The notes beneath the pieces were generated by a model, which worked only from the letters and a program-made list of their open reading frames with translations, made no database searches and was not told the DNA's origin. A stretch of 14,705 bases of DNA from Bosea beijingensis (lineage in GTDB: Bacteria; Pseudomonadota; Alphaproteobacteria; Rhizobiales; Beijerinckiaceae): assembly GCF_030758975.1 (NCBI RefSeq), contig NZ_CP132359.1:5486113-5500817 (forward strand), given 5' to 3'. The position numbers were made by a program, and so were the translations under genes. This document shows positions 1 through 10,121 of this stretch, piece after piece (positions within the stretch are counted from its first letter, which is position 1; the number at the start of each line of letters is the position of its first letter).

Positions 1-1185
1 GACGATCTCGAGGTCCACATTCAGGCCTGCGGCCTGCAGCATCGACTGGGCGATCACGGCCGTCTCGTAGGTGTCGCGCTCGTTCTTGTTCGCCATCAGC
101 ACGATGCGCTGGCCGGCATAGCCGGCTTCCTTGAGCAGGCGGGCGGCCTTGGCCGGATCGTAGGCAAAGCCGCGTTGCTGGGTGCTCGAATAGTAGCGCG
201 ATGCGGTCGCAACGATGGAGGCGTTCGCGGGAACGAGCCCGTCCGTCACGGATTGCGCGATCTGGCGGAAATCGAGAGCGGCGGCGATCGCCTGGCGCAT
301 CTTGACGTTGGACAGGAGCGGATCGCGCGTCTGCAGCAGGATCGTGCTGAACATCATCGTCGGAGCCGTGGTCACCACGAGATCGGGCTTGGCCTTCAGC
401 TCGGGCACATCGGGAGCACTGACCGATGCGAGGATGTCGATCTTGCCGCTCATCAGCGCGGCCTTTGCCGTCGCATCGTCTGGAACGACCACGAACTGAA
501 CCGCATCGACCAGAGGCTTCTTCCCGCCGACATAGCCGTCGGCCGGGCCGCCGCGATCCGTGTAATCGGCGAAGCGATCGAGCCGGATATACTCGCCGCG
601 GCGCCATTCGCCGAACTTGAACGGCCCTGTGCCGACTGGTGTCTTGAACGAGCCGTCAGGATTGACCGAGGAGCGCGCGATGATGGCGGTCTGGCCGCAT
701 TGGCTGCGCGCGATCCCCGCCAGGAATACGGAGCTCGGCTGGTTCAGGGTGAAGACCACCGTGTCCGCGTCGGGCGCCGCGATTTCGGCCTTAAGACCGT
801 TGGCGCCGTTATATTCGCCAGTGCAGAGCCAGCCGGTCTTCGGGTCCATATAGCGGCGCCAGTTCCAGACCACGTCCTCGGCGGTCAACGTCGAGCCGTC
901 GTGAAACTTGACGCCCTTTCGCAGCTTGAATGTGTAGGTCAGACCGTCCGGCGAGGTGTCGATCGTCTCCGCCAGAAGCGGCTTCGGCGTGCCGTTCGCG
1001 GAGTTGGCCACCAGCCCCTCCACCATGTGCAGGACGACGCCATCCGTCGAATCGTCCCGGTTCACGCCGGGATTGATGCTGCGGATATCGGTGTTGAGCC
1101 GGCTGCGGAGCGTATCGGCCGCAGCCTCGGACGCAGCAAAGCCGGCGGCGAGCGCCAGCAGAAGAGCGGTGGTTCGCTTGTTCAT
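1..1185 (-). CDS. ABC transporter substrate-binding protein, family 5 (peptide/solute), 3' end cut by window
   Basis: This is the periplasmic binding component of a dipeptide/oligopeptide-type ABC importer. Seen: the first 395 codons are present and the frame is still open at base 1; family members are usually about 500-530 residues. A Sec signal peptide is clear, with MNKR, a hydrophobic run at residues 7-18 and an Ala-rich AAA|D cleavage site near residue 23. The SBP_bac_5 signature follows (GLTYTFKLRKGVKFHDGS at about residues 84-101, then AEDVVWNWRRY). The ATG has a strong Shine-Dalgarno (GGAGGG, about 6 nt upstream). It lies 52 bp downstream of the C45 hydrolase gene on the same strand, so it probably belongs to the same transcript, with permease and ATPase genes expected beyond base 1. 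Family 5 proteins bind peptides, but also opines, nickel chelates and glycosides, so the ligand is not established by sequence. The association with amide-cleaving enzymes suggests a peptide-like or N-acylated ligand (inference). Confidence 0.93.
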   Translation of the reverse strand, partial: MNKRTTALLLALAAGFAASEAAADTLRSRLNTDIRSINPGVNRDDSTDGVVLHMVEGLVANSANGTPKPLLAETIDTSPDGLTYTFKLRKGVKFHDGSTLTAEDVVWNWRRYMDPKTGWLCTGEYNGANGLKAEIAAPDADTVVFTLNQPSSVFLAGIARSQCGQTAIIARSSVNPDGSFKTPVGTGPFKFGEWRRGEYIRLDRFADYTDRGGPADGYVGGKKPLVDAVQFVVVPDDATAKAALMSGKIDILASVSAPDVPELKAKPDLVVTTAPTMMFSTILLQTRDPLLSNVKMRQAIAAALDFRQIAQSVTDGLVPANASIVATASRYYSSTQQRGFAYDPAKAARLLKEAGYAGQRIVLMANKNERDTYETAVIAQSMLQAAGLNVDLEIV

Positions 1186-1237: not shown

Positions 1238-2353
1238 TTATGCCAGGCTGTAGCGTGTGAACTCCCGATTGAGCGCCGGCAGGGGAGCCACTTCCATGAT
1301 CCCCGCAGCCGGCTGCATCACCACCATCGCGACCGTGGCGGACAGGTTGGCGTCGCGCAGGCCGGGGCGAGGTGGACGGCAGACACTGTAGGGCGTGCCG
1401 AAATCGTCGAAGAGAGCCGATTTGACGTCCGCCACCGTCAGGCTGCTGCCTGTCTGGTCGAGCAGTCTCTTGACGCGCCAGTCGCGGTAGACGCTCTCCG
1501 GGACATTCGCGAGTCCGGTTTCCCGAAGCTTTGCCAGCGCGATCGGGCTGACCCAATGGTTCGCGTGAACGATCAAACCGTCCGCGGGGTAAAGCGAGAA
1601 GGCCTCGTCCGGCGCGCACTCGAAATTGATCGCGAAGCCGGTGGCAACCGATAGCATCATGTTGTTCGAGCAGGTTTTCGGCGTCGCCGCGACGGCCTTG
1701 ATCGCGAAAGCGAGATGGTTCTGTTCGAGCACCTTCCGGCGGATCAGGCTGAGCGGCACGCCGAACTGGCGGTAGTCGCGCTCGCTGTCGAGATAATTGG
1801 CGGTGATGGCGATGCCCGCCGCGTTGAGACCCGAGCGCGCCAGACCGCCGGCCTCGACGAAGGTTAGGAAATCCGGGCCGTCCGGCTGCTGCACGCGGAG
1901 CACGATGCCGGTCTCGGCACAATCGGCGCGCCAATCCCAGTTCTGGGCATGGACGAGCTCGCCCGTCGCACTGCGCTCGGGCATGACGATCAGGCCGGTA
2001 CAGCCATCATCCGCCTCGTCGAGCTCGCGGCGCGGGCGGTTCTTGTCCAGTCTTGCCCGGGCGATCACTTCAGTACGCGCATTGACGAGAACGACGTCCT
2101 GCAGCGAGACGCCTGCTCCTTCCGCGATGCCGCGCATCTCCTCGATGTAATGGGCGCCGAAGGCCTCGATCTCATTGGCGAAAGGCATGATGAGATCGGC
2201 CTGCTCCGCAGCCGAGCAGCCGAATTCGCCGAGCTGGCCGCCATAGAGCGCGATGCTGCGCCTGACGCGATCGCGGGCGATCTCGCCATATTGGCGTCCG
2301 CGCTCGCGCGGCGTGCCGGAGATCGAGACGAGAGGAAAGGGAGTGTGGGTCAT
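1238..2353 (-). CDS. C45-family autoproteolytic acyltransferase/amidohydrolase (Ntn hydrolase)
   Basis: A 371-residue protein of the peptidase C45 / acyl-CoA:6-aminopenicillanate acyltransferase-like family. Members are Ntn hydrolases that cleave themselves before a catalytic cysteine, then hydrolyse or transfer an amide-linked acyl group. Seen: the N-terminal block has the family pattern (ISGTPRERGRQYGE, residues 11-24). The likely self-cleavage site is Gly117-Cys118 in DDGCTG. Downstream are the conserved NWDW (138-141), SGLNAAGIAITAN (174-186) and HANHW (263-267) motifs, and the length is normal. There is no signal peptide, so it is predicted to be cytoplasmic. The start is the ATG just after a weak GAAG-like ribosome site. 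It lies between an alpha/beta hydrolase gene (141 bp upstream) and a peptide-binding protein gene (52 bp downstream), all on one strand. This suggests it cleaves an imported amide or N-acyl compound. The substrate is unknown; penicillin is only the name-giving substrate of the family. Confidence 0.88.
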   Translation of the reverse strand: MTHTPFPLVSISGTPRERGRQYGEIARDRVRRSIALYGGQLGEFGCSAAEQADLIMPFANEIEAFGAHYIEEMRGIAEGAGVSLQDVVLVNARTEVIARARLDKNRPRRELDEADDGCTGLIVMPERSATGELVHAQNWDWRADCAETGIVLRVQQPDGPDFLTFVEAGGLARSGLNAAGIAITANYLDSERDYRQFGVPLSLIRRKVLEQNHLAFAIKAVAATPKTCSNNMMLSVATGFAINFECAPDEAFSLYPADGLIVHANHWVSPIALAKLRETGLANVPESVYRDWRVKRLLDQTGSSLTVADVKSALFDDFGTPYSVCRPPRPGLRDANLSATVAMVVMQPAAGIMEVAPLPALNREFTRYSLA

Positions 2354-2494: not shown

Positions 2495-3337
2495 TTATGT
2501 CGGCGACTGGTTGCGCAATGCTTCGGTGAAGAAGTCCTTCACCGGCGGATGAACCAGATGTCCGGTATGCTCGACGCCGGGCACGACATCGAAGCGCACC
2601 GGTATCTCCAGATTCTGGAACGCCTTTTCGAGCGAGCGCAGGCGCTCGACGCGCGTCTGCCCGGTTTCGTTGATCCCCTCTACCCAGTTGGGGGAGCCTG
2701 GCGCCACCGTCACGTCCCAGGTCTCGATATCGTCGCCGCCGACGACCATCTGCACCGCGACCTTGCGCATGGCGGCGAGATCGGGCTCGCGCCCGAAAAT
2801 CTCCTTCATGCCGCTGGTGCCGCGCCACCACGGCTTGTCCGGGTCCGGCAAGGTCACCACGCCCGGCGCACCGATCGACACGGCGGAAAGCCGCTCGGGA
2901 TAGAGGTAGAAGAAGCGGTGCGCGAACTGGCCGCCGCCCGAGAAGCCGTGCATCAGGAGTTTATCGGTCTCGAGCCGGTAGATGCCGGCCACTTCCTCGA
3001 TCATCGACAGCAGGATCTGGTCGTAGCGGATGCCACGATAGAGGATGCGCTTGTAGTTATGGGTGTCGCCGGGTTCCTCGATTCCGCAGGGAAACAGCGG
3101 GGCCAGGAGCGCGCACTGGTTGGCCTCGGCGAAATCGATGAACTGATCGCGCAGGATATCGGCATTGCGACCGCTGCCATGGACGAGCACCGCGAGCGGA
3201 TAGCGCCGCGTGCCGGTCTCCTCGTAGCTCTCGGGCAGATAGCAGCAATAGGAGAAACGCTGGTCGACCTGGCAGGCGGCAAGCGCCGTGCGGCCGAGCA
3301 GGTAATAAGAGATATTCTTTCCGTGGCCCTTGCGCAT
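2495..3337 (-). CDS. Alpha/beta hydrolase, PHB-depolymerase/esterase-like
   Basis: A 280-residue serine hydrolase with an alpha/beta-hydrolase fold, resembling the small PHB-depolymerase-like/feruloyl-esterase-like proteins. Seen: an oxyanion-hole motif HGSG (residues 53-56), a nucleophile elbow GFSGGG with Ser133, a candidate acid in VVGGDD (201-203) and a candidate catalytic histidine in VEHTGH (His257 or His260). Together these make a complete plausible triad. No signal peptide is visible, so it probably works in the cytoplasm on a soluble ester or amide, not a secreted polymer (inference). The frame stays open upstream to about 3673, but that extension overlaps the transaminase gene and has no family similarity. 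MRKGHGK at 3337 is the natural start and leaves a 68-bp gap to the upstream gene. It is probably co-transcribed with the transaminase and the C45 hydrolase. The exact substrate cannot be read from the sequence. Confidence 0.85.
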   Translation of the reverse strand: MRKGHGKNISYYLLGRTALAACQVDQRFSYCCYLPESYEETGTRRYPLAVLVHGSGRNADILRDQFIDFAEANQCALLAPLFPCGIEEPGDTHNYKRILYRGIRYDQILLSMIEEVAGIYRLETDKLLMHGFSGGGQFAHRFFYLYPERLSAVSIGAPGVVTLPDPDKPWWRGTSGMKEIFGREPDLAAMRKVAVQMVVGGDDIETWDVTVAPGSPNWVEGINETGQTRVERLRSLEKAFQNLEIPVRFDVVPGVEHTGHLVHPPVKDFFTEALRNQSPT

Positions 3338-3405
3338 GTCCGGCTTTCCTTCGCGTGTCAGTCGGCCTGGGAGACGACGGCATTGCCGCCGTCCGGCCCG
3401 GGGAT

Positions 3406-4731
3406 TCAGGCGATGGCGTCGAGCGCCTTGCGGATGCTGGCGAAGATCCGATCGATCTCGTCGGGCTCGATGGTCAGCGGCGGCGAGAGCACGATGAGAT
3501 CGGCGCCGGCCCGGACGAGCACGCCGTCCTGATAGCAGGCCTCGGCACATTCGGCGCTGCGCTGGCCGGGACTGCCGGGCCGGGGCGCGAACTCGATCGC
3601 GGCGACGAGGCCGATATTGCGGATGTCGACGACATGCGGTGCGCCCTTCAGCGCATGTGCCGCCTGCTCCCAATGTTCGGCAATCTTCCGGGTCCGCTCG
3701 AAGAGGCCTTCCTCTTCATAGACCTGCAGCGTGGCCAGCCCGGCGGCGCAGGCCAGCGGATGGCCGGAATAGGTATAGCCGTGGAACAGTTCGATCGCGG
3801 CTTCCGGCCCGGTCATGAAGGCGTCGTAGATATGCTTGCCGACGACGGTCGCGCCCATCGGAACGGCGCCGTTGGTCAGGCCCTTGGCGCAGGTGATCAT
3901 GTCCGGCGTCACGCCAAAGGCCTCGGCCGCGCAGGAGGCACCGAGCCGCCCGAAGCCGGAGATCACTTCGTCGAAGATCAAGAGGATGCCGTGCTTGTCG
4001 CAGATTTCGCGCAGGCGCTTGAGATAGCCTTTCGGCGGCGGCAACACGCCGGTCGAGCCAGCGACGGGTTCGACGATCACGGCGGCGATGGTCGAGGCGT
4101 CGTGGATCTGGACGAGCCGCTCCAGATCGTCGGCGAGTTCGACGCCATGCTCCGGCTCGCCGCGCGAGAAGGCATTGCGCGCGAGGTCGAGCGTATGCGG
4201 CAAATGTGCGGTACCGGGCAACAGCGGGCCGAAATCGCGGCGGTGGCGGCTGATGCCGGCGACCGACAGGCCGCCGAAGCCCATGCCGTGATAGCCGCGC
4301 GCGCGGCCGATCAGGCGGTAGCGGCCGCCCTCGCCGCGCTGGCGATGATAGGCGAGCGCGACTTTCAGCGCGGTGTCGACGGCTTCCGACCCGGAATTCG
4401 AGAACAGCACGTGGTCGAGCCCATCGGGCAGCATGCCGACCATGCGGTTCGCCAGCGTGAAGGCCTCAGGATGTCCCATCTGGAAACAGGAGACATAGTC
4501 GAGCCCGTCGGCCTGGGCCTTGATCGCCTCGCGGATGCGCGGGTGGCCATGGCCGGCATTGACGCACCACAGTCCGGCCATGCCGTCGAGGATGCGGCGC
4601 CCGTCCGAAGAGAGATAGTAATTGCCTTCCGCCCCGACGAAGAGCCGCGGCGCGCTCTTGAAGCGGCGGTTCGCGGTGAAGGGCATCCAATGCGCGTCGA
4701 GATCATTGGGGCGGGCGACAATGGCGGACAC
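3406..4731 (-). CDS. Class III PLP aminotransferase, omega-amino acid (beta-alanine):pyruvate transaminase type
   Basis: A 441-residue fold-type I transaminase that would transfer the terminal amino group of an omega-amino acid or amine to pyruvate, giving alanine and a semialdehyde. Seen: the N-terminal block LDAHWMPFTANRRFK (residues 11-25) and LDGMAGLWCVNAGHGHP (48-64) are hallmarks of the beta-alanine/omega-amino acid:pyruvate subgroup. The cofactor site is intact: SGSE (113-116), YHG (147-149), FDEV with Asp254, and the PLP-binding lysine 283 in CAKGLTNG. The length is normal. The start codon is GTG, chosen because a good ribosome site (GAGG, 6 nt upstream) precedes it and the next upstream codons carry no similarity. 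It is the first gene after a promoter carrying the GntR operator, and it probably leads a transcript that runs on through the hydrolase, the C45 enzyme and the binding protein. Beta-alanine, GABA, putrescine-like amines and taurine are all possible substrates. Confidence 0.93.
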   Translation of the reverse strand: MSAIVARPNDLDAHWMPFTANRRFKSAPRLFVGAEGNYYLSSDGRRILDGMAGLWCVNAGHGHPRIREAIKAQADGLDYVSCFQMGHPEAFTLANRMVGMLPDGLDHVLFSNSGSEAVDTALKVALAYHRQRGEGGRYRLIGRARGYHGMGFGGLSVAGISRHRRDFGPLLPGTAHLPHTLDLARNAFSRGEPEHGVELADDLERLVQIHDASTIAAVIVEPVAGSTGVLPPPKGYLKRLREICDKHGILLIFDEVISGFGRLGASCAAEAFGVTPDMITCAKGLTNGAVPMGATVVGKHIYDAFMTGPEAAIELFHGYTYSGHPLACAAGLATLQVYEEEGLFERTRKIAEHWEQAAHALKGAPHVVDIRNIGLVAAIEFAPRPGSPGQRSAECAEACYQDGVLVRAGADLIVLSPPLTIEPDEIDRIFASIRKALDAIA

Positions 4732-4761: not shown

Positions 4762-4792
4762 TGTATCATTTTCATTAAAAGTACAATGTCAA
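4762..4792 (-). promoter_or_regulatory. Promoter with GntR operator copy A, upstream of the transaminase
   Basis: On the minus strand a perfect -35 hexamer TTGACA (4792-4787) is followed by an AT-rich stretch and a weak GATACA-like -10. Lying between and over these elements is TGTAC-N14-ATACA (4785-4762), a 24-bp near-palindrome. The same element with perfect arms occurs 5' of the neighbouring GntR gene at 5777-5800. The arrangement fits a repressor site that occludes RNA polymerase. The -10 assignment is uncertain (spacing 18-19). Confidence 0.55.
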
Positions 4793-4845
4793 GAGGCCGT
4801 GTCGACCTGGGCACCGGCCGTGCAGCGCCGAGAGCGGCGGATGGC

Positions 4846-4865
4846 GCGCCCGCTATCGCGGGCGC
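4846..4865 (-). terminator. Perfect GC stem-loop enclosing the gntR stop codon
   Basis: GCGCCCGC and GCGGGCGC form a perfect 8-bp all-GC stem with a 4-nt loop. The TAG stop codon of the GntR gene sits at the loop/stem junction. It has no downstream T-tract on the minus strand, so it is not a textbook intrinsic terminator. It could slow polymerase, protect the 3' end of the regulator mRNA or aid Rho-dependent ending ahead of the transaminase promoter. Confidence 0.4.
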
Positions 4866-5746
4866 ATCGGGCGGGTCAGGTGCTGACGCATCAGGATGGC
4901 CGCCCAATTTGGGTCGCCATGCTCCAGAGCGTCGAGGATCGCCAGGTGCTCCTGGCAGGACTTCAGCAGGGCATCCGCGTCGAGCGCGCCGTAATCGGCA
5001 TATTCGGTCAGGCGCCGCAGGGCGTTCTGGTTCTCCATGGCCTGCTGCAGGAAGCGATTGCCCGAGCAGGCCGCGAGCATGGCATGGAAGCCGGCATTGA
5101 TCTCGAAGAAGCGCTCGGCAGCCGGGGGGCGGGCGATATCCGCGATGAAGGCCTCGTGGGCGGCGCGGCAGCGGTCGAATTGGACCTGATCGACCCGAAA
5201 GCTGGGCTCCAGCAGGCCCATGCACTCGATGATCATGCGAAAGCGGTAGCTTTCCTCGCGCGCCTGATTCGACGAAAGCGAGGGCACGAAGCTCCAGCCA
5301 TGCCCCTTGCGGCGCTTGATCAGGCCGTCTTCCGCGAGCTGGAGCAGAACCTTCCTGAGGGCGCTCGGGCCGATCCGGTACGCCTCCTGAAGCTCCGTCT
5401 CGATGAGATGCTCGGGAAGACGACCTGCCTCACGATCGCGCAGGATGGCGTGGATGACGTTCTCCTCGCGCGCCGCCGGAAGAGACTGCTCGGCCGCGGC
5501 GAGCTCGGCATTCTCGCTGACCAGAAAGAAGCCCTGATTGGCGCGCGCCTCGACGACGCCCTGCTCGGCCAGCAGGCGAAGGGCAGCCCGCGCCGGAGTG
5601 CGGGACACCTCGAAAGCGCGCGCGATCTCCGTCTCTCGCAGATGGTATCCGGCCGGCCACCCCTGCTCAGCGGCAAGGGCGACGATCCGTCTTGCCAGGG
5701 AAAGGTGGAGACTGCTGCGCTTCCTGCCGAGTTCGCCGAGGCTCAT
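4853..5746 (-). CDS. GntR/FCD transcriptional regulator with two tandem winged-helix domains
   Basis: A 297-residue regulator. Seen: a normal GntR winged helix at about residues 14-76 (LRETEIARAFEVSRTPARAA with a recognition helix, then LLAEQGVVEARANQGFFL). A second GntR-like winged helix follows at about 95-155 (HLIETELQEAYRIGPSALRK, then LAEDGLIKRRKGHGW). A C-terminal FCD helical domain covers about 165-290, with the metal-ligand pattern Asn217-x3-His221, His267 and His289. Usual FCD regulators are about 220-250 residues with one winged helix, so the extra 70-80 residues are explained by the duplicated DNA-binding domain. MSLGELG is the chosen start (AGGA about 10 nt upstream); the open frame continues to about 6166 but overlaps the LysR gene without similarity. 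It lies immediately upstream of the transaminase operon on the same strand and shares a 24-bp palindrome with it, so it is probably an autoregulated, ligand-responsive repressor of that operon. FCD domains bind metal plus small carboxylates. Confidence 0.9.
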   Translation of the reverse strand: MSLGELGRKRSSLHLSLARRIVALAAEQGWPAGYHLRETEIARAFEVSRTPARAALRLLAEQGVVEARANQGFFLVSENAELAAAEQSLPAAREENVIHAILRDREAGRLPEHLIETELQEAYRIGPSALRKVLLQLAEDGLIKRRKGHGWSFVPSLSSNQAREESYRFRMIIECMGLLEPSFRVDQVQFDRCRAAHEAFIADIARPPAAERFFEINAGFHAMLAACSGNRFLQQAMENQNALRRLTEYADYGALDADALLKSCQEHLAILDALEHGDPNWAAILMRQHLTRPMRPR

Positions 5747-5776
5747 CGAGGGTCCTGTCGCGATGGTAGAGTTTTT

Positions 5777-5800
5777 TGTACTATTACGCTTTTCTGTACA
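5777..5800. promoter_or_regulatory. GntR operator copy B, in the gntR promoter region
   Basis: A perfect inverted repeat TGTAC-N14-GTACA lies 31-54 bp upstream of the GntR start codon, in an AT-rich patch that stands out from the GC-rich surroundings. It matches the arms, length and spacing of the element in front of the transaminase (4762-4785). The position fits negative autoregulation. No convincing sigma-70 hexamers could be assigned here. Confidence 0.6.
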
Positions 5801-6855: not shown

Positions 6856-7194
6856 ATGGGCTGGCGTCCGTGGCTATTCCTTTTTGCAGCGGTCGGCACC
6901 GAGCTGATCGGCGTCACGATGATGAAGGTGATGGCAGAGGGGAGCGGGCCTTATGCGATCGCTCTTGTCTATGTCTCGATGGCAGCGAGCTTCTTCTTCC
7001 TGTCCCTCGCCGTGAAGGTCCTTCCCATCGCCATCGCCTACGCCACCTGGGAAACCGTTGGCCTGATCGCGGTTACGGCCATCAGCTACCGGTTTTTCGG
7101 CGAGACCTTGAGCTGGCCGAAGCTGGGAGGGATCGGATTGCTGGTCCTCGGTGTCGTGCTGGTCAATGCCGGCGCGCCGGAAGAGGAAGCGTGA
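6856..7194 (+). CDS. mdtJ: SMR-family transporter subunit, MdtJ-like (polyamine/drug export)
   Basis: A 112-residue small multidrug resistance protein with four predicted membrane helices (about residues 4-23, 33-52, 58-78, 84-104). The invariant membrane glutamate is present (Glu16 in AAVGTELIG), which exchanges protons for cationic substrate. The run FFFLSLAVKVLPIAIAYATWETVG closely follows the MdtJ pattern (family recognition), including the WE pair where other SMR proteins have WxG. In E. coli, MdtJ works only as a heterodimer with MdtI and exports spermidine. Here the next gene is MdtI-like and follows after 2 bp, which supports the assignment. The inner-membrane location and the divergent LysR gene suggest induction by a toxic amine. 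A quaternary-ammonium or drug substrate is the alternative. Confidence 0.88.
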   Translation: MGWRPWLFLFAAVGTELIGVTMMKVMAEGSGPYAIALVYVSMAASFFFLSLAVKVLPIAIAYATWETVGLIAVTAISYRFFGETLSWPKLGGIGLLVLGVVLVNAGAPEEEA

Positions 7195-7196
7195 CG

Positions 7197-7526
7197 ATGC
7201 AGAACACCCAGCTTGCCCATATCCTCTGGATGCTCGGCGCCATCGGGCTGGAGGTCGCGGCCAACGTCTTCATCAAGCTGTCCGACGGCTTCCGGCGGCT
7301 GACTGTCGGGCTCCTCGGAATCGCGTGCATCCTGCTGTCCGTGACGGCGCTCTCTCAGGCGATCCGCGGGATCGACCTGTCGATCGCCTACGCGCTGTGG
7401 GGTGGAGCCGGCATCATCCTCACGGCCCTGGCGGCGTTCGTGCTCTTCCGGCAGAGGCTGACGAGTGCGGGATGGATCGGTGTCGGCTTTGTGGTCGCAG
7501 GTATTGGGCTGCTGAAGCTGGCCTGA
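7197..7526 (+). CDS. mdtI: SMR-family transporter subunit, MdtI-like (spermidine export partner)
   Basis: A 109-residue SMR protein with four helices and the conserved Glu19 (GLEVAANVFIKLSDGFRR). The blocks ALSQAIRGIDLSIAYALWGG and the ending GLLKLA are near-identical in pattern to enterobacterial MdtI (recognition from memory of the family). It is the obligatory partner of MdtJ. ATG at 7197 is the preferred start; a GTG at 7191 in the same frame would overlap the mdtJ stop as GTGA and give two more residues. Either way the two genes are translationally coupled. The long frame open upstream from about 5538 is antisense or out-of-frame to real genes and is not part of this protein. The combination with an MdtJ-like partner and a LysR regulator indicates a self-contained export unit. 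Confidence 0.9.
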   Translation: MQNTQLAHILWMLGAIGLEVAANVFIKLSDGFRRLTVGLLGIACILLSVTALSQAIRGIDLSIAYALWGGAGIILTALAAFVLFRQRLTSAGWIGVGFVVAGIGLLKLA

Positions 7527-7671: not shown

Positions 7672-8598
7672 TTATCCGGACCTTCGCCCAGCCCGGCTCA
7701 TCGCCTCGTCGATCTCCGCTTGAGCGGTCTTGTCGATCTCCGCGATGAAGACGATGCGCGTGCCGCCCTGCCCCGGATCGTCCCGATCGAGCGGCGCCAG
7801 CGTGGCCTTCCCGCCCGCGAGCTGGAAGAGATAGCGGCGATCCGGCTGCTCCACCGTTTCGAAGAGCCCTTTCGCGCGGACGAGCCGCGGCGCAAGCTGG
7901 CCGATCGCCTGCTGGAAACCGGCCAGCGAAATCGGCTCACTGGACGTCCAGCTAAAGCTCTCGAAACGGTCGATGCTAGGTCGTTTCGGGCGCGTCGTCC
8001 GCTCGCGCGCAGTCCCGACCTCGGGAAAGACGAGATCGAGCGGAATATCACCGCCCGTCGCCTCGACGAGGGTGGCCCTGCGATTGACCTGCGACAATGC
8101 AAGGCGGCGCGCGTCGAGAGCTGCCCTGTCGACGAGATCTCCCTTGCTGAGAGCGACGAGATCGGCGGCTCGCAACTGGCTCAGGAGCAAGGGGTCGCTC
8201 AGATCCGCCTCCGGCGATGCCGCATCGGCAACGCACAGCACCGTCTCCAGCGGGGCTTCGCGCCAGATCACCGGATCCATCAGATTACGGATGATATCCT
8301 CGGGATCGGCAACGCCGCTGGTCTCGATCACGATGGCCTCGGGACGCGGGCTTCGCCGCAGCAGATTGGCGAGCGTCCGAAGCAGGTCGCCCTCCAGCGA
8401 GCAGCAGATGCAGCCATTGGCGAGGCTGACGACCCCGTCCTCGGCGCCGGCGATCAGCTCGGCATCGATGTTGATCGCGCCGAAATCATTGACGACGGCC
8501 GCGATCCGGCGGCCGTCCGCCTGCTGCAGGAGACGGTTGACCAGCGTCGTCTTGCCGGCCCCGAGAAAGCCCGTGACCAGCAGAACCGGAACCGACAT
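7672..8598 (-). CDS. CobW/COG0523 GTP-dependent metallochaperone
   Basis: A 308-residue G3E-family GTPase of the CobW/COG0523 group, which hands zinc or another metal to target proteins. Seen: Walker A GFLGAGKT (residues 10-17), the NDFG switch motif (38-41), the metal-binding CxCC as NGCICC with Cys63, Cys65 and Cys66, ETSG (92-95), and SKGD (150-153) in the guanine-specificity position normally N/TKxD. The C-terminal CobW domain covers about 215-300. There is no His-rich tail, unlike many zinc-stress members. The gene starts 3 bp after the stop of the metal-dependent amidohydrolase gene (TGA-AGC-ATG), so the two are translationally coupled. That makes the amidohydrolase the obvious client (inference), rather than cobalamin synthesis, since no cob genes are near. 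No Zur-box-like site was recognised upstream of the operon. Confidence 0.92.
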   Translation of the reverse strand: MSVPVLLVTGFLGAGKTTLVNRLLQQADGRRIAAVVNDFGAINIDAELIAGAEDGVVSLANGCICCSLEGDLLRTLANLLRRSPRPEAIVIETSGVADPEDIIRNLMDPVIWREAPLETVLCVADAASPEADLSDPLLLSQLRAADLVALSKGDLVDRAALDARRLALSQVNRRATLVEATGGDIPLDLVFPEVGTARERTTRPKRPSIDRFESFSWTSSEPISLAGFQQAIGQLAPRLVRAKGLFETVEQPDRRYLFQLAGGKATLAPLDRDDPGQGGTRIVFIAEIDKTAQAEIDEAMSRAGRRSG

Positions 8599-8601
8599 GC
8601 T

Positions 8602-10095
8602 TCAGGCTGCCCTGCCGAAGGGGCGGCGCACCGGCTGGCCCGGCCTGGCAGCGACATTCATCAGCCCGTCCGTGATGACAGGCTCTCCGCTGACGACAAG
8701 GTGCCGGACGCCTTCGGCCGGGCGGTTCATCGCTGAGAACTCGGCGCGGTCGGTCAGCTTGTCCAGGTCGAAGACGACGACATCGGCATCGGCTCCCGCC
8801 TTCAGCCGGCCCTTCTCCCGCATCGCAGGCGTGCTCGCGGCCAGGATTTCGGCCGGGATCAGCGTGCATTTCGCGATGCCCTCGCTGAGCCCGATCGCCT
8901 GCCGCTCGCGCACCCAGTGGCGCAGGAAGCGCGTGAAGGTGCCCGACGAGCGCGGATGCGAGGTCGCCTCCTCGGGCAGCGGCCAGGCATCGCCGGTATA
9001 GCTCGACCCGTCCGGCATCGACCAGGGCATGGCATCCGATGCGATCGCGCCGCCGGGATACAGCACCGAAAGATCGAGCATGTCGCGATGGCGGGCGTTG
9101 TTCTCGGTATCGAGCACATGCCAGAGGACAAGCTGCGAAGGATCCTCGGATTGGGTCGAGAGCAGGTCCTCGCGGTCCTGGATCCGGCGCCCGCTCGTGA
9201 CGAGCTGGATCTGCTGGTAGCGCGTGTCGTTGCGGCTTTCGAACTCCGGGTCGCTGAAGAACGCGGCGGCGATCACGGTCGAGCCCGTGCCATAGGGATA
9301 GGCTTCCACCGTAATCGGCAGCCCCTGTTCCTGCGCTTTCCTGATCAACCGCGCACAGCGCTCGATATCGGTCTTGCTGGAGCTGTTGAAGTGGCAGATG
9401 TGCATATGCGCGCCGGTCGCGCCGGCATAGCCGATCAGGCGCACATAAGCCTCCGCGGCGCTCTTGGGATCGGTGTTCGCCATATAGGCGATATGGGTGA
9501 AGGTCGGCACGCCGCGCTCGGCCGCGAGCTGGCAGAGCGCCGTCAGTTCCTGCACGCCCGCGCCGGGCGCGTAGGCGTTCAGGATGCCGATGCCGATGCC
9601 GCCTTCGTCGAGTCCTGCCGCGATACGGTCGAGGATGTTCTGCTGCTCGGAAGGCGAGGAGATATTGTCCATCCAGCGCGGATCGCGCATGGCGCGCCCG
9701 AACGCCTCCAGAGAGGATTCCTCGTTGATCCCGATCATCGCGCCGATCCGGGCGAAGGCCCAGTTCGTGGCGGCGCCGTAATTCAGGATACGGCCCTGCT
9801 CCGCCTGCCGGCGATACCAGGAGGCGACCGGCAGCACCCCGGCTTCGAGGTCCAATGTCGTGGTGACGCCGTCGAAAGCCTGCATCCGGTCGGCCGGGAT
9901 CGACTGGCCATGGGCATGAAGGTCGATGAAGCCGGGCGCGACGATCAGCCCACGCGCATCGATCACGCGCTCGGCAGTGCCGAGGCCGGAACCGATCGCA
10001 ACGATCTTTCCGTCGGCGATGGCGACGTCGGCGATGCCGTCATGCCCGCTTTCCGGATCGACGACACGGCCGCCCGCGATCAAGAATCCGCTCAT
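8602..10095 (-). CDS. Metal-dependent amidohydrolase, N-acyl-D-amino-acid deacylase group
   Basis: A 497-residue amidohydrolase-superfamily enzyme of the D-aminoacylase/dihydroorotase-like group, expected to hydrolyse an N-acyl amide in the cytoplasm. Seen: an N-terminal beta-sandwich strand (LIAGGRVVDPESG), then GFIDLHAHGQ with metal ligands His60 and His62. Further metal-site candidates are His201 (TFTH), His235 (HICH) and the catalytic Asp354 (ASDAMPWS). A C-terminal GRLKAGADADVVVFDLDKLTD block (about 436-456) is typical of this superfamily. Characterised D-aminoacylases use a Cys after HxH (GNCG motif); here the corresponding GVTT-T-LDLEAG stretch offers Glu84 instead, so the site or specificity probably differs. 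The ATG at 10095 has GAGGG just upstream; the longer open frame to 10200 lacks similarity. It is the first gene of a two-gene operon with a CobW chaperone. N-acyl-D-glutamate/D-amino acid deacylase is the best guess, not proven. Confidence 0.88.
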   Translation of the reverse strand: MSGFLIAGGRVVDPESGHDGIADVAIADGKIVAIGSGLGTAERVIDARGLIVAPGFIDLHAHGQSIPADRMQAFDGVTTTLDLEAGVLPVASWYRRQAEQGRILNYGAATNWAFARIGAMIGINEESSLEAFGRAMRDPRWMDNISSPSEQQNILDRIAAGLDEGGIGIGILNAYAPGAGVQELTALCQLAAERGVPTFTHIAYMANTDPKSAAEAYVRLIGYAGATGAHMHICHFNSSSKTDIERCARLIRKAQEQGLPITVEAYPYGTGSTVIAAAFFSDPEFESRNDTRYQQIQLVTSGRRIQDREDLLSTQSEDPSQLVLWHVLDTENNARHRDMLDLSVLYPGGAIASDAMPWSMPDGSSYTGDAWPLPEEATSHPRSSGTFTRFLRHWVRERQAIGLSEGIAKCTLIPAEILAASTPAMREKGRLKAGADADVVVFDLDKLTDRAEFSAMNRPAEGVRHLVVSGEPVITDGLMNVAARPGQPVRRPFGRAA

Positions 10096-10121
10096 CTGCC
10101 CTCGCCTCTCGTTCTCTTGGC

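Follow-up and report, generated by a model that had tools for sequence, protein, structure and literature searches.

Genes and palindromes at the gntR locus

The window, a 14,705-nt stretch of the Bosea beijingensis genome, carries gntR and four further genes on the same strand, which we propose to be transcribed together with aptA as the first gene (Table 1). The solute-binding-protein gene extends past the window edge into L246. Two single-N joins (L246:10596 and 13113) lie just before the window, which starts right after the second; exact direct duplications of 125 and 101 bp flank the two joins, which resemble scaffold joins with unmerged overlaps. Elsewhere in the window, an SMR gene at 6856-7194 (PF00893) is followed by what appears by eye to be a second SMR gene, and the pair (6856-7526, +), next to a LysR gene, possibly forms a paired SMR exporter. 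Additionally, a gene for a CobW-type GTPase adjoins an amidohydrolase gene (7672-10098, -; NF006560, Pfam), and the two may represent a metal-delivery pair.

Two 24-bp palindromes flank gntR. Site A, with the sequence TGTACTATTACGCTTTTCTGTACA, lies 5′ of gntR, while site B, with the sequence TGTATCATTTTCATTAAAAGTACA on the plus strand and the form TGTAC-N14-ATACA on the minus strand, lies between gntR and the transaminase gene. The preliminary description had reported both palindromes, and the sequence at 5777-5800 and 4762-4785 confirms them. The exact pattern TGTAC-N14-GTACA is found once in the window, at site A, and in 0 of 200 shuffles. The extended match TTGTAC-N15-TACATC, likewise described before, is indeed shared: its only 2 occurrences in the 5,560,387-bp genome are sites A and B, about 1 kb apart, against a genome-wide chance expectation of 0.086 (from the window composition) and 1 match for the pattern read backwards. 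As had been described, both sites lie in AT-rich islands, with GC contents of 0.21 and 0.33 vs 0.664 for the window, and at both the GT and AC boxes are 18 nt apart.

The earlier observation that the gene gaps here hold no third copy extends to the whole genome, as judged by the exact pattern and by a mismatch search set against a backwards control. Specifically, the 13-base consensus of both sites, with up to two mismatches allowed, gave 2 matches at 0 mismatches (sites A and B) and 2 others at 2 mismatches, compared with 15+7 for the backwards control, and no convincing third copy was seen genome-wide. The genome-wide search for further regulon members likewise gave none better than the control. 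One of the copies had also been placed directly behind a TTGACA -35 box. This holds for the copy at aptA, where the box directly precedes site B, and not for site A, beside which none was seen. At aptA, site B fills the spacer between TTGACA and the AATGAT candidate.

Table 1 Features of the gntR locus (positions in the window)
Feature	Position	Strand	Evidence and remarks
Site A, 24-bp palindrome	5777..5800	.	30 nt 5′ of the gntR start codon; putative autoregulatory operator
Site B, 24-bp palindrome	4762..4785	.	30 nt 5′ of the aptA start codon; putative operator of the transaminase operon
gntR, GntR regulator, 297 aa	4853..5746	-	Two Pfam GntR stretches and FCD; AlphaFold2 model
aptA, class III omega-aminotransferase	3406..4731	-	PF00202; NF052567, 709.4 bits vs cut-off 500; proposed first gene of the operon
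Esterase-like protein	2495..3352	-	No Pfam match; weak NCBIfam match of 36.7 bits, far under the cut-off of 150
C45 family autoproteolytic acyltransferase/hydrolase	1238..2353	-	PF03417; NF040521, 296.5 bits vs cut-off 85
Family 5 solute-binding protein (peptide type)	1..1185	-	PF00496, 290.5 bits vs 32.4
TTGACA, -35-like box of aptA	4787..4792	-	TTGACATTGTA identical in 7/7 Bosea loci
AATGAT, -10 candidate of aptA	4765..4770	-	Assigned by eye; 16-nt spacer; overlaps site B

Architecture of the regulator

The gntR product contains an N-terminal GntR winged helix (PF00392, 65.6 bits vs a cut-off of 27) and a C-terminal FCD domain (PF07729, 68.3 bits vs 24.3), whose fold is also seen in the AlphaFold2 model (mean pLDDT 88.3; input, an alignment of 45 sequences). 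The usual FCD regulator has one winged helix per subunit. Here Pfam finds two GntR stretches, and the model shows two winged helices, the second placed between the first and the FCD domain: wHTH1 spans residues ~12-75, wHTH2 ~93-153, and FCD ~160-291. By its domains the protein is therefore an FCD-GntR regulator, but not an ordinary one.

This double-headed build recurs. A profile of the family at E<=1e-60 recovers it in at least 58 of 397 genomes sampled from the order and at least 20 of 398 sampled from the phylum, both counts being lower bounds with at most five candidates scored per genome. The window's own genome, in which we counted 32 FCD matches, holds at least 4 such genes. Of 66 other Bosea genomes, six carry a close ortholog (74-79% identity), that of B. 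thiooxidans being 78% identical. Sequence and fold searches of the PDB returned, among the matches listed, no chain visibly spanning both heads plus the FCD domain.

Putative operator motif of double-headed regulators

We assembled 123 double-headed gene records from the genus and order samples, 114 of them distinct and forming 54 families at 60% identity, and searched their 190-nt upstreams by palindromic expectation-maximisation, with one member per family and a local-composition background. The log-likelihood ratio was best at a total length of 24 (69.0, half-site TGtaTTTT), at which 20 block shuffles gave 17.9-26.7, and lengths 22, 26, and 28 returned other registers of the same motif. The motif is a 24-bp palindrome with the half-site aTTGtaTTTT, that is, GT-N18-AC. 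In 104 half-sites, from the 52 sites scoring at least 12 bits, the base frequencies (%) are a51 T56 T80 G88 T51 A47 T72 T81 T78 T63, and the centre is not conserved. A second TTGT box within each half-site is not supported by these base counts. The estimated occupancy among the 54 families is 0.44-0.52, about half being without a clear site. With 300-nt upstreams, which include more coding DNA, the 24-bp peak (66.1) is less clear, codon-like palindromes reaching 60.1 and the direct-repeat model 63.7.

In six-fold cross-validation, 30 of the 54 double-headed upstreams score at least 8 bits, a level reached by a fraction of 0.133 of the block shuffles and 0.076 of the single-headed scores; raising the threshold to 12 bits leaves 15 of 54, 0.037, and 0.013, respectively. 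The single-headed control comprises 79 FCD families (96 genes) from five genomes, in which the de novo search yields only GC-rich, codon-like palindromes. By simple pattern counts, TGT-N18-ACA is present in 8/54 double-headed upstreams (mean 1.98 and maximum 4 in 60 shuffle runs) vs 2/79 single-headed ones (mean 1.87), and TGT-N19-ACA is likewise raised (6/54 double-headed upstreams; mean 2.20 and maximum 6 in shuffles). An excess is also seen for the short TKGT-N3-ACMA, which is present in 4/54 double-headed upstreams (mean 0.52 and maximum 2 in shuffles), so a short site may be used by some double-headed regulators. In the single-headed set, TGT-N2-ACA is present in 7/79 upstreams (mean 1.80 and maximum 5 in shuffles), which hints at the textbook spacing. 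Of 12 loci from outside the order, four score at least 12 bits; three of these four encode proteins sharing ~95% identity, and AT-rich shuffles of the four loci reach 11.7-16.8 bits. Support for the motif there is weak.

We then scored the window with a matrix trained on 53 families, its own family being left out. Among 14,676 window positions, site B ranks first (29.0 bits) and site A second (12.8 bits), the third reaching 7.7. With a background following local AT content, site B is still first (14.6 bits) and site A falls to rank 8 (-0.1). Across the seven Bosea loci, the window included, the top score goes to the aptA-gap site (28.4-36.4 bits), followed, as the next independent site, by the one upstream of gntR (12.7-21.3 bits). 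The arms in the six other Bosea orthologs read TGTATT, TGTCTT, TGCATT, and similar, and arms reading exactly TGTAC are peculiar to the lineage of the window; a loose TGTA(C/T)-type palindrome pattern, run over loci L001-L032, matches in the window's own genome only. The possibility that the orthologs conserve neither the gntR site nor the right arm at aptA was dropped, as the 24-bp frame was recovered by the matrix in both places. Ortholog comparison combined with motif discovery, which the preliminary description had named as a check, thus recovers the 24-bp frame and the half-site at both places in 7/7 Bosea loci. Its view that gntR and the transaminase operon share one operator class is supported, while the exact TGTAC arms are not the conserved part of that class.

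The matrix saw only gntR-upstream DNA in training, so the gap just 3′ of gntR offers an independent test; its interval limits were set after looking at the data, and the window's second site had already pointed there. Sites of at least 13 bits occur in this gap in 12 of 53 other families, where 0.66 sites are expected from the remainder of the loci (Poisson P 8e-12). The gap corresponds to the position of site B in the window, and 9 families carry an upstream and a 3′-gap site together, in the same layout. The sites number 36 in 15.7 kb of upstream DNA, a count not independent of matrix training, 1 in 46.9 kb within gntR genes, and 26 in 354.8 kb elsewhere in the loci.

These distributions bear on whether the palindromes could serve another dimeric regulator, encoded for example by the LysR gene that adjoins gntR or by an unlinked gene, with the GntR protein merely a neighbour. 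Adjacency alone is not binding. Nevertheless, the motif was derived from 54 double-headed families in different genomes and the held-out matrix picks both sites; within the loci, the sites are concentrated 5′ and immediately 3′ of gntR, with few in other places, and high scores are rare among single-headed FCD upstreams, all of which makes another regulator improbable. We give a similarly low probability to the possibility that the motif is mere promoter sequence, its palindrome being a by-product of composition in AT-rich islands that contain TTGACA and T-runs. The sites are indeed AT-rich, site B overlaps the -35/-10 spacer, and site A drops in rank under the local AT correction. However, on 190-nt upstreams the palindromic model outscores the best odd length (44.2) as well as the mirror (29.9) and direct-repeat (39.3) models and the composition-keeping block shuffles. 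Furthermore, only 1 of 35 AT-island single-headed upstreams scores at least 12 bits, and the excess 3′ of gntR also appears in GC-matched windows, in each of four GC bins.

We therefore consider it probable that both palindromes are operators of the adjacent double-winged-helix FCD-GntR protein. Against this count the weakness of site A after AT correction, the occupancy of 0.44-0.52, the weak signal outside the order, the proline at residue 127 (see below), and the short TKGT-N3-ACMA of some double-headed families. A dimer, with its predicted four winged helices, would recognise a long palindrome of aTTGtaTTTT half-sites, with GT and AC 18 nt apart rather than 2-3. The presence of the palindrome at gntR suggests that the regulator controls its own gene through site A. 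Because site B fills the aptA -35/-10 spacer, repression by blockage of RNA polymerase fits: sitting between the two boxes, the regulator would block transcription of the putative operon of transaminase, esterase-like protein, C45 hydrolase, and solute-binding protein until a ligand of the FCD domain releases it from site B. Judging from its genes, the operon plausibly serves to take up and degrade amides or peptides that contain beta-amino acids, and the ligand would plausibly be a breakdown product of such compounds.

Possible recognition by the two heads and comparison with known systems

In E. coli FadR, specific contacts come from R35, T44, and R45, with E34 bonding to the two arginines (PMC4494728). 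The equivalent residues by spacing are E38/T39/S48/R49 in wHTH1 and E116/T117/G126/P127 in wHTH2. Residues S48, R49, and P51 of wHTH1 are invariant (45/45 sequences). In the recognition helix of wHTH2, residue 127 is Arg or Lys in 42/45 sequences; of the other three, the window's protein and P0002 have Pro, and P0072 has Ser. Among the seven closest relatives of the window's protein (P0002-P0008), this residue is Pro in six and Ser in one.

Covariation was assessed in 37 families with sites of at least 14 bits. Divergence of wHTH2 correlates with that of the outer operator bases (r=0.30, p=0.001), also after partialling on the FCD domain (r=0.25, p=0.001), compared with r=0.11 (p=0.06) for wHTH1 and r=0.21 (p=0.002) for the FCD domain; the inner operator bases show no significant correlation with either head. 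Reading of the outer box by the N-terminal head is thus unsupported by covariation. At the level of single residues, residue 117 of wHTH2 is linked to operator position 3 with an R2 of 0.49, the highest among the ten columns listed and third by z, while its wHTH1 equivalent, residue 39, gives 0.05. Ala at 117 goes with 89% T at this position (14 families) and Gln with 93% C or G (7 families). Permutation within 3, 5, 8, and 12 clades gives p=0.0002, 0.004, 0.01, and 0.11, respectively. Since FCD columns show similar overall hit rates in the scan, shared ancestry is a possible cause of the covariation. The data hint that the FCD-proximal wHTH2 contacts the outer TGT box, with ancestry, given the p of 0.11 within 12 clades, as the other possible source of the signal.

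From these observations, tandem-winged-helix FCD-GntR proteins may form a widespread subclass that uses GT-N18-AC in a 24-bp palindrome, with the outer TGT box read by wHTH2; within the clade of the window, wHTH2 lacks the usual Arg/Lys and the outer arms are near-perfect. We hold this broader reading tentatively, at a shade under even, because of the direct-repeat control on 300-nt upstreams, the short-site count, and the FCD correlation. FCD-GntR regulators are numerous, and the published site rule for them is the short GT-N2-3-AC (PMC4494728). If a GT-N18-AC rule is true, double-headed regulons overlooked by scans with the short rule would become predictable from sequence, and the class would show how a duplicated DNA-binding head lengthens an operator. 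No double-headed FCD regulator is named in the open-licence literature searched, and the class may still be described elsewhere.

Long spacing could also arise in another way, from a tetramer made of two dimers or from an assembly acting like a ruler, instead of the four heads of one dimer. BusR, a GntR-type c-di-AMP regulator, provides the precedent, being a tetramer that reads half-sites 22 bp apart (PMC8517857). It differs from the present protein in building its tetramer through a coiled coil with RCK_C and without FCD. In the window's protein, Pfam gives only GntR and FCD above cut-off, and the model adds a second winged helix; moreover, the long motif tracks the double-headed build and not single-headed FCD proteins. 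We rate such an assembly as very unlikely, marginally more so than the other two alternatives, and favour recognition by the four winged helices of one dimer.

Among known systems, the FadR/FCD subfamily (FadR, LldR, PdhR, DgoR, VanR) shares with the regulator a GntR winged helix plus FCD, a GT/AC-box palindrome, and sites at the regulator's own gene and at a neighbouring operon. The present protein differs in having two winged helices instead of one and in its spacing: the distance between GT and AC is 18 nt, in sites A and B as in the de novo motif, vs 3 (or 2) nt in that subfamily (PMC4494728). The preliminary description had called the spacing unusual for FCD regulators, and it is indeed far from this norm. 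The additional half-sites of Suvorova et al. 2015 lie ~7-12 nt from the centre, like the outer boxes here; they accompany a main palindromic site, whereas in the window's class the centre is unconserved. Finally, the YtrA subfamily, also as outlined in PMC4494728, resembles the present operators in that GT and AC are distant from the palindrome centre, and differs in carrying a short C-terminal domain where the window's protein has FCD.
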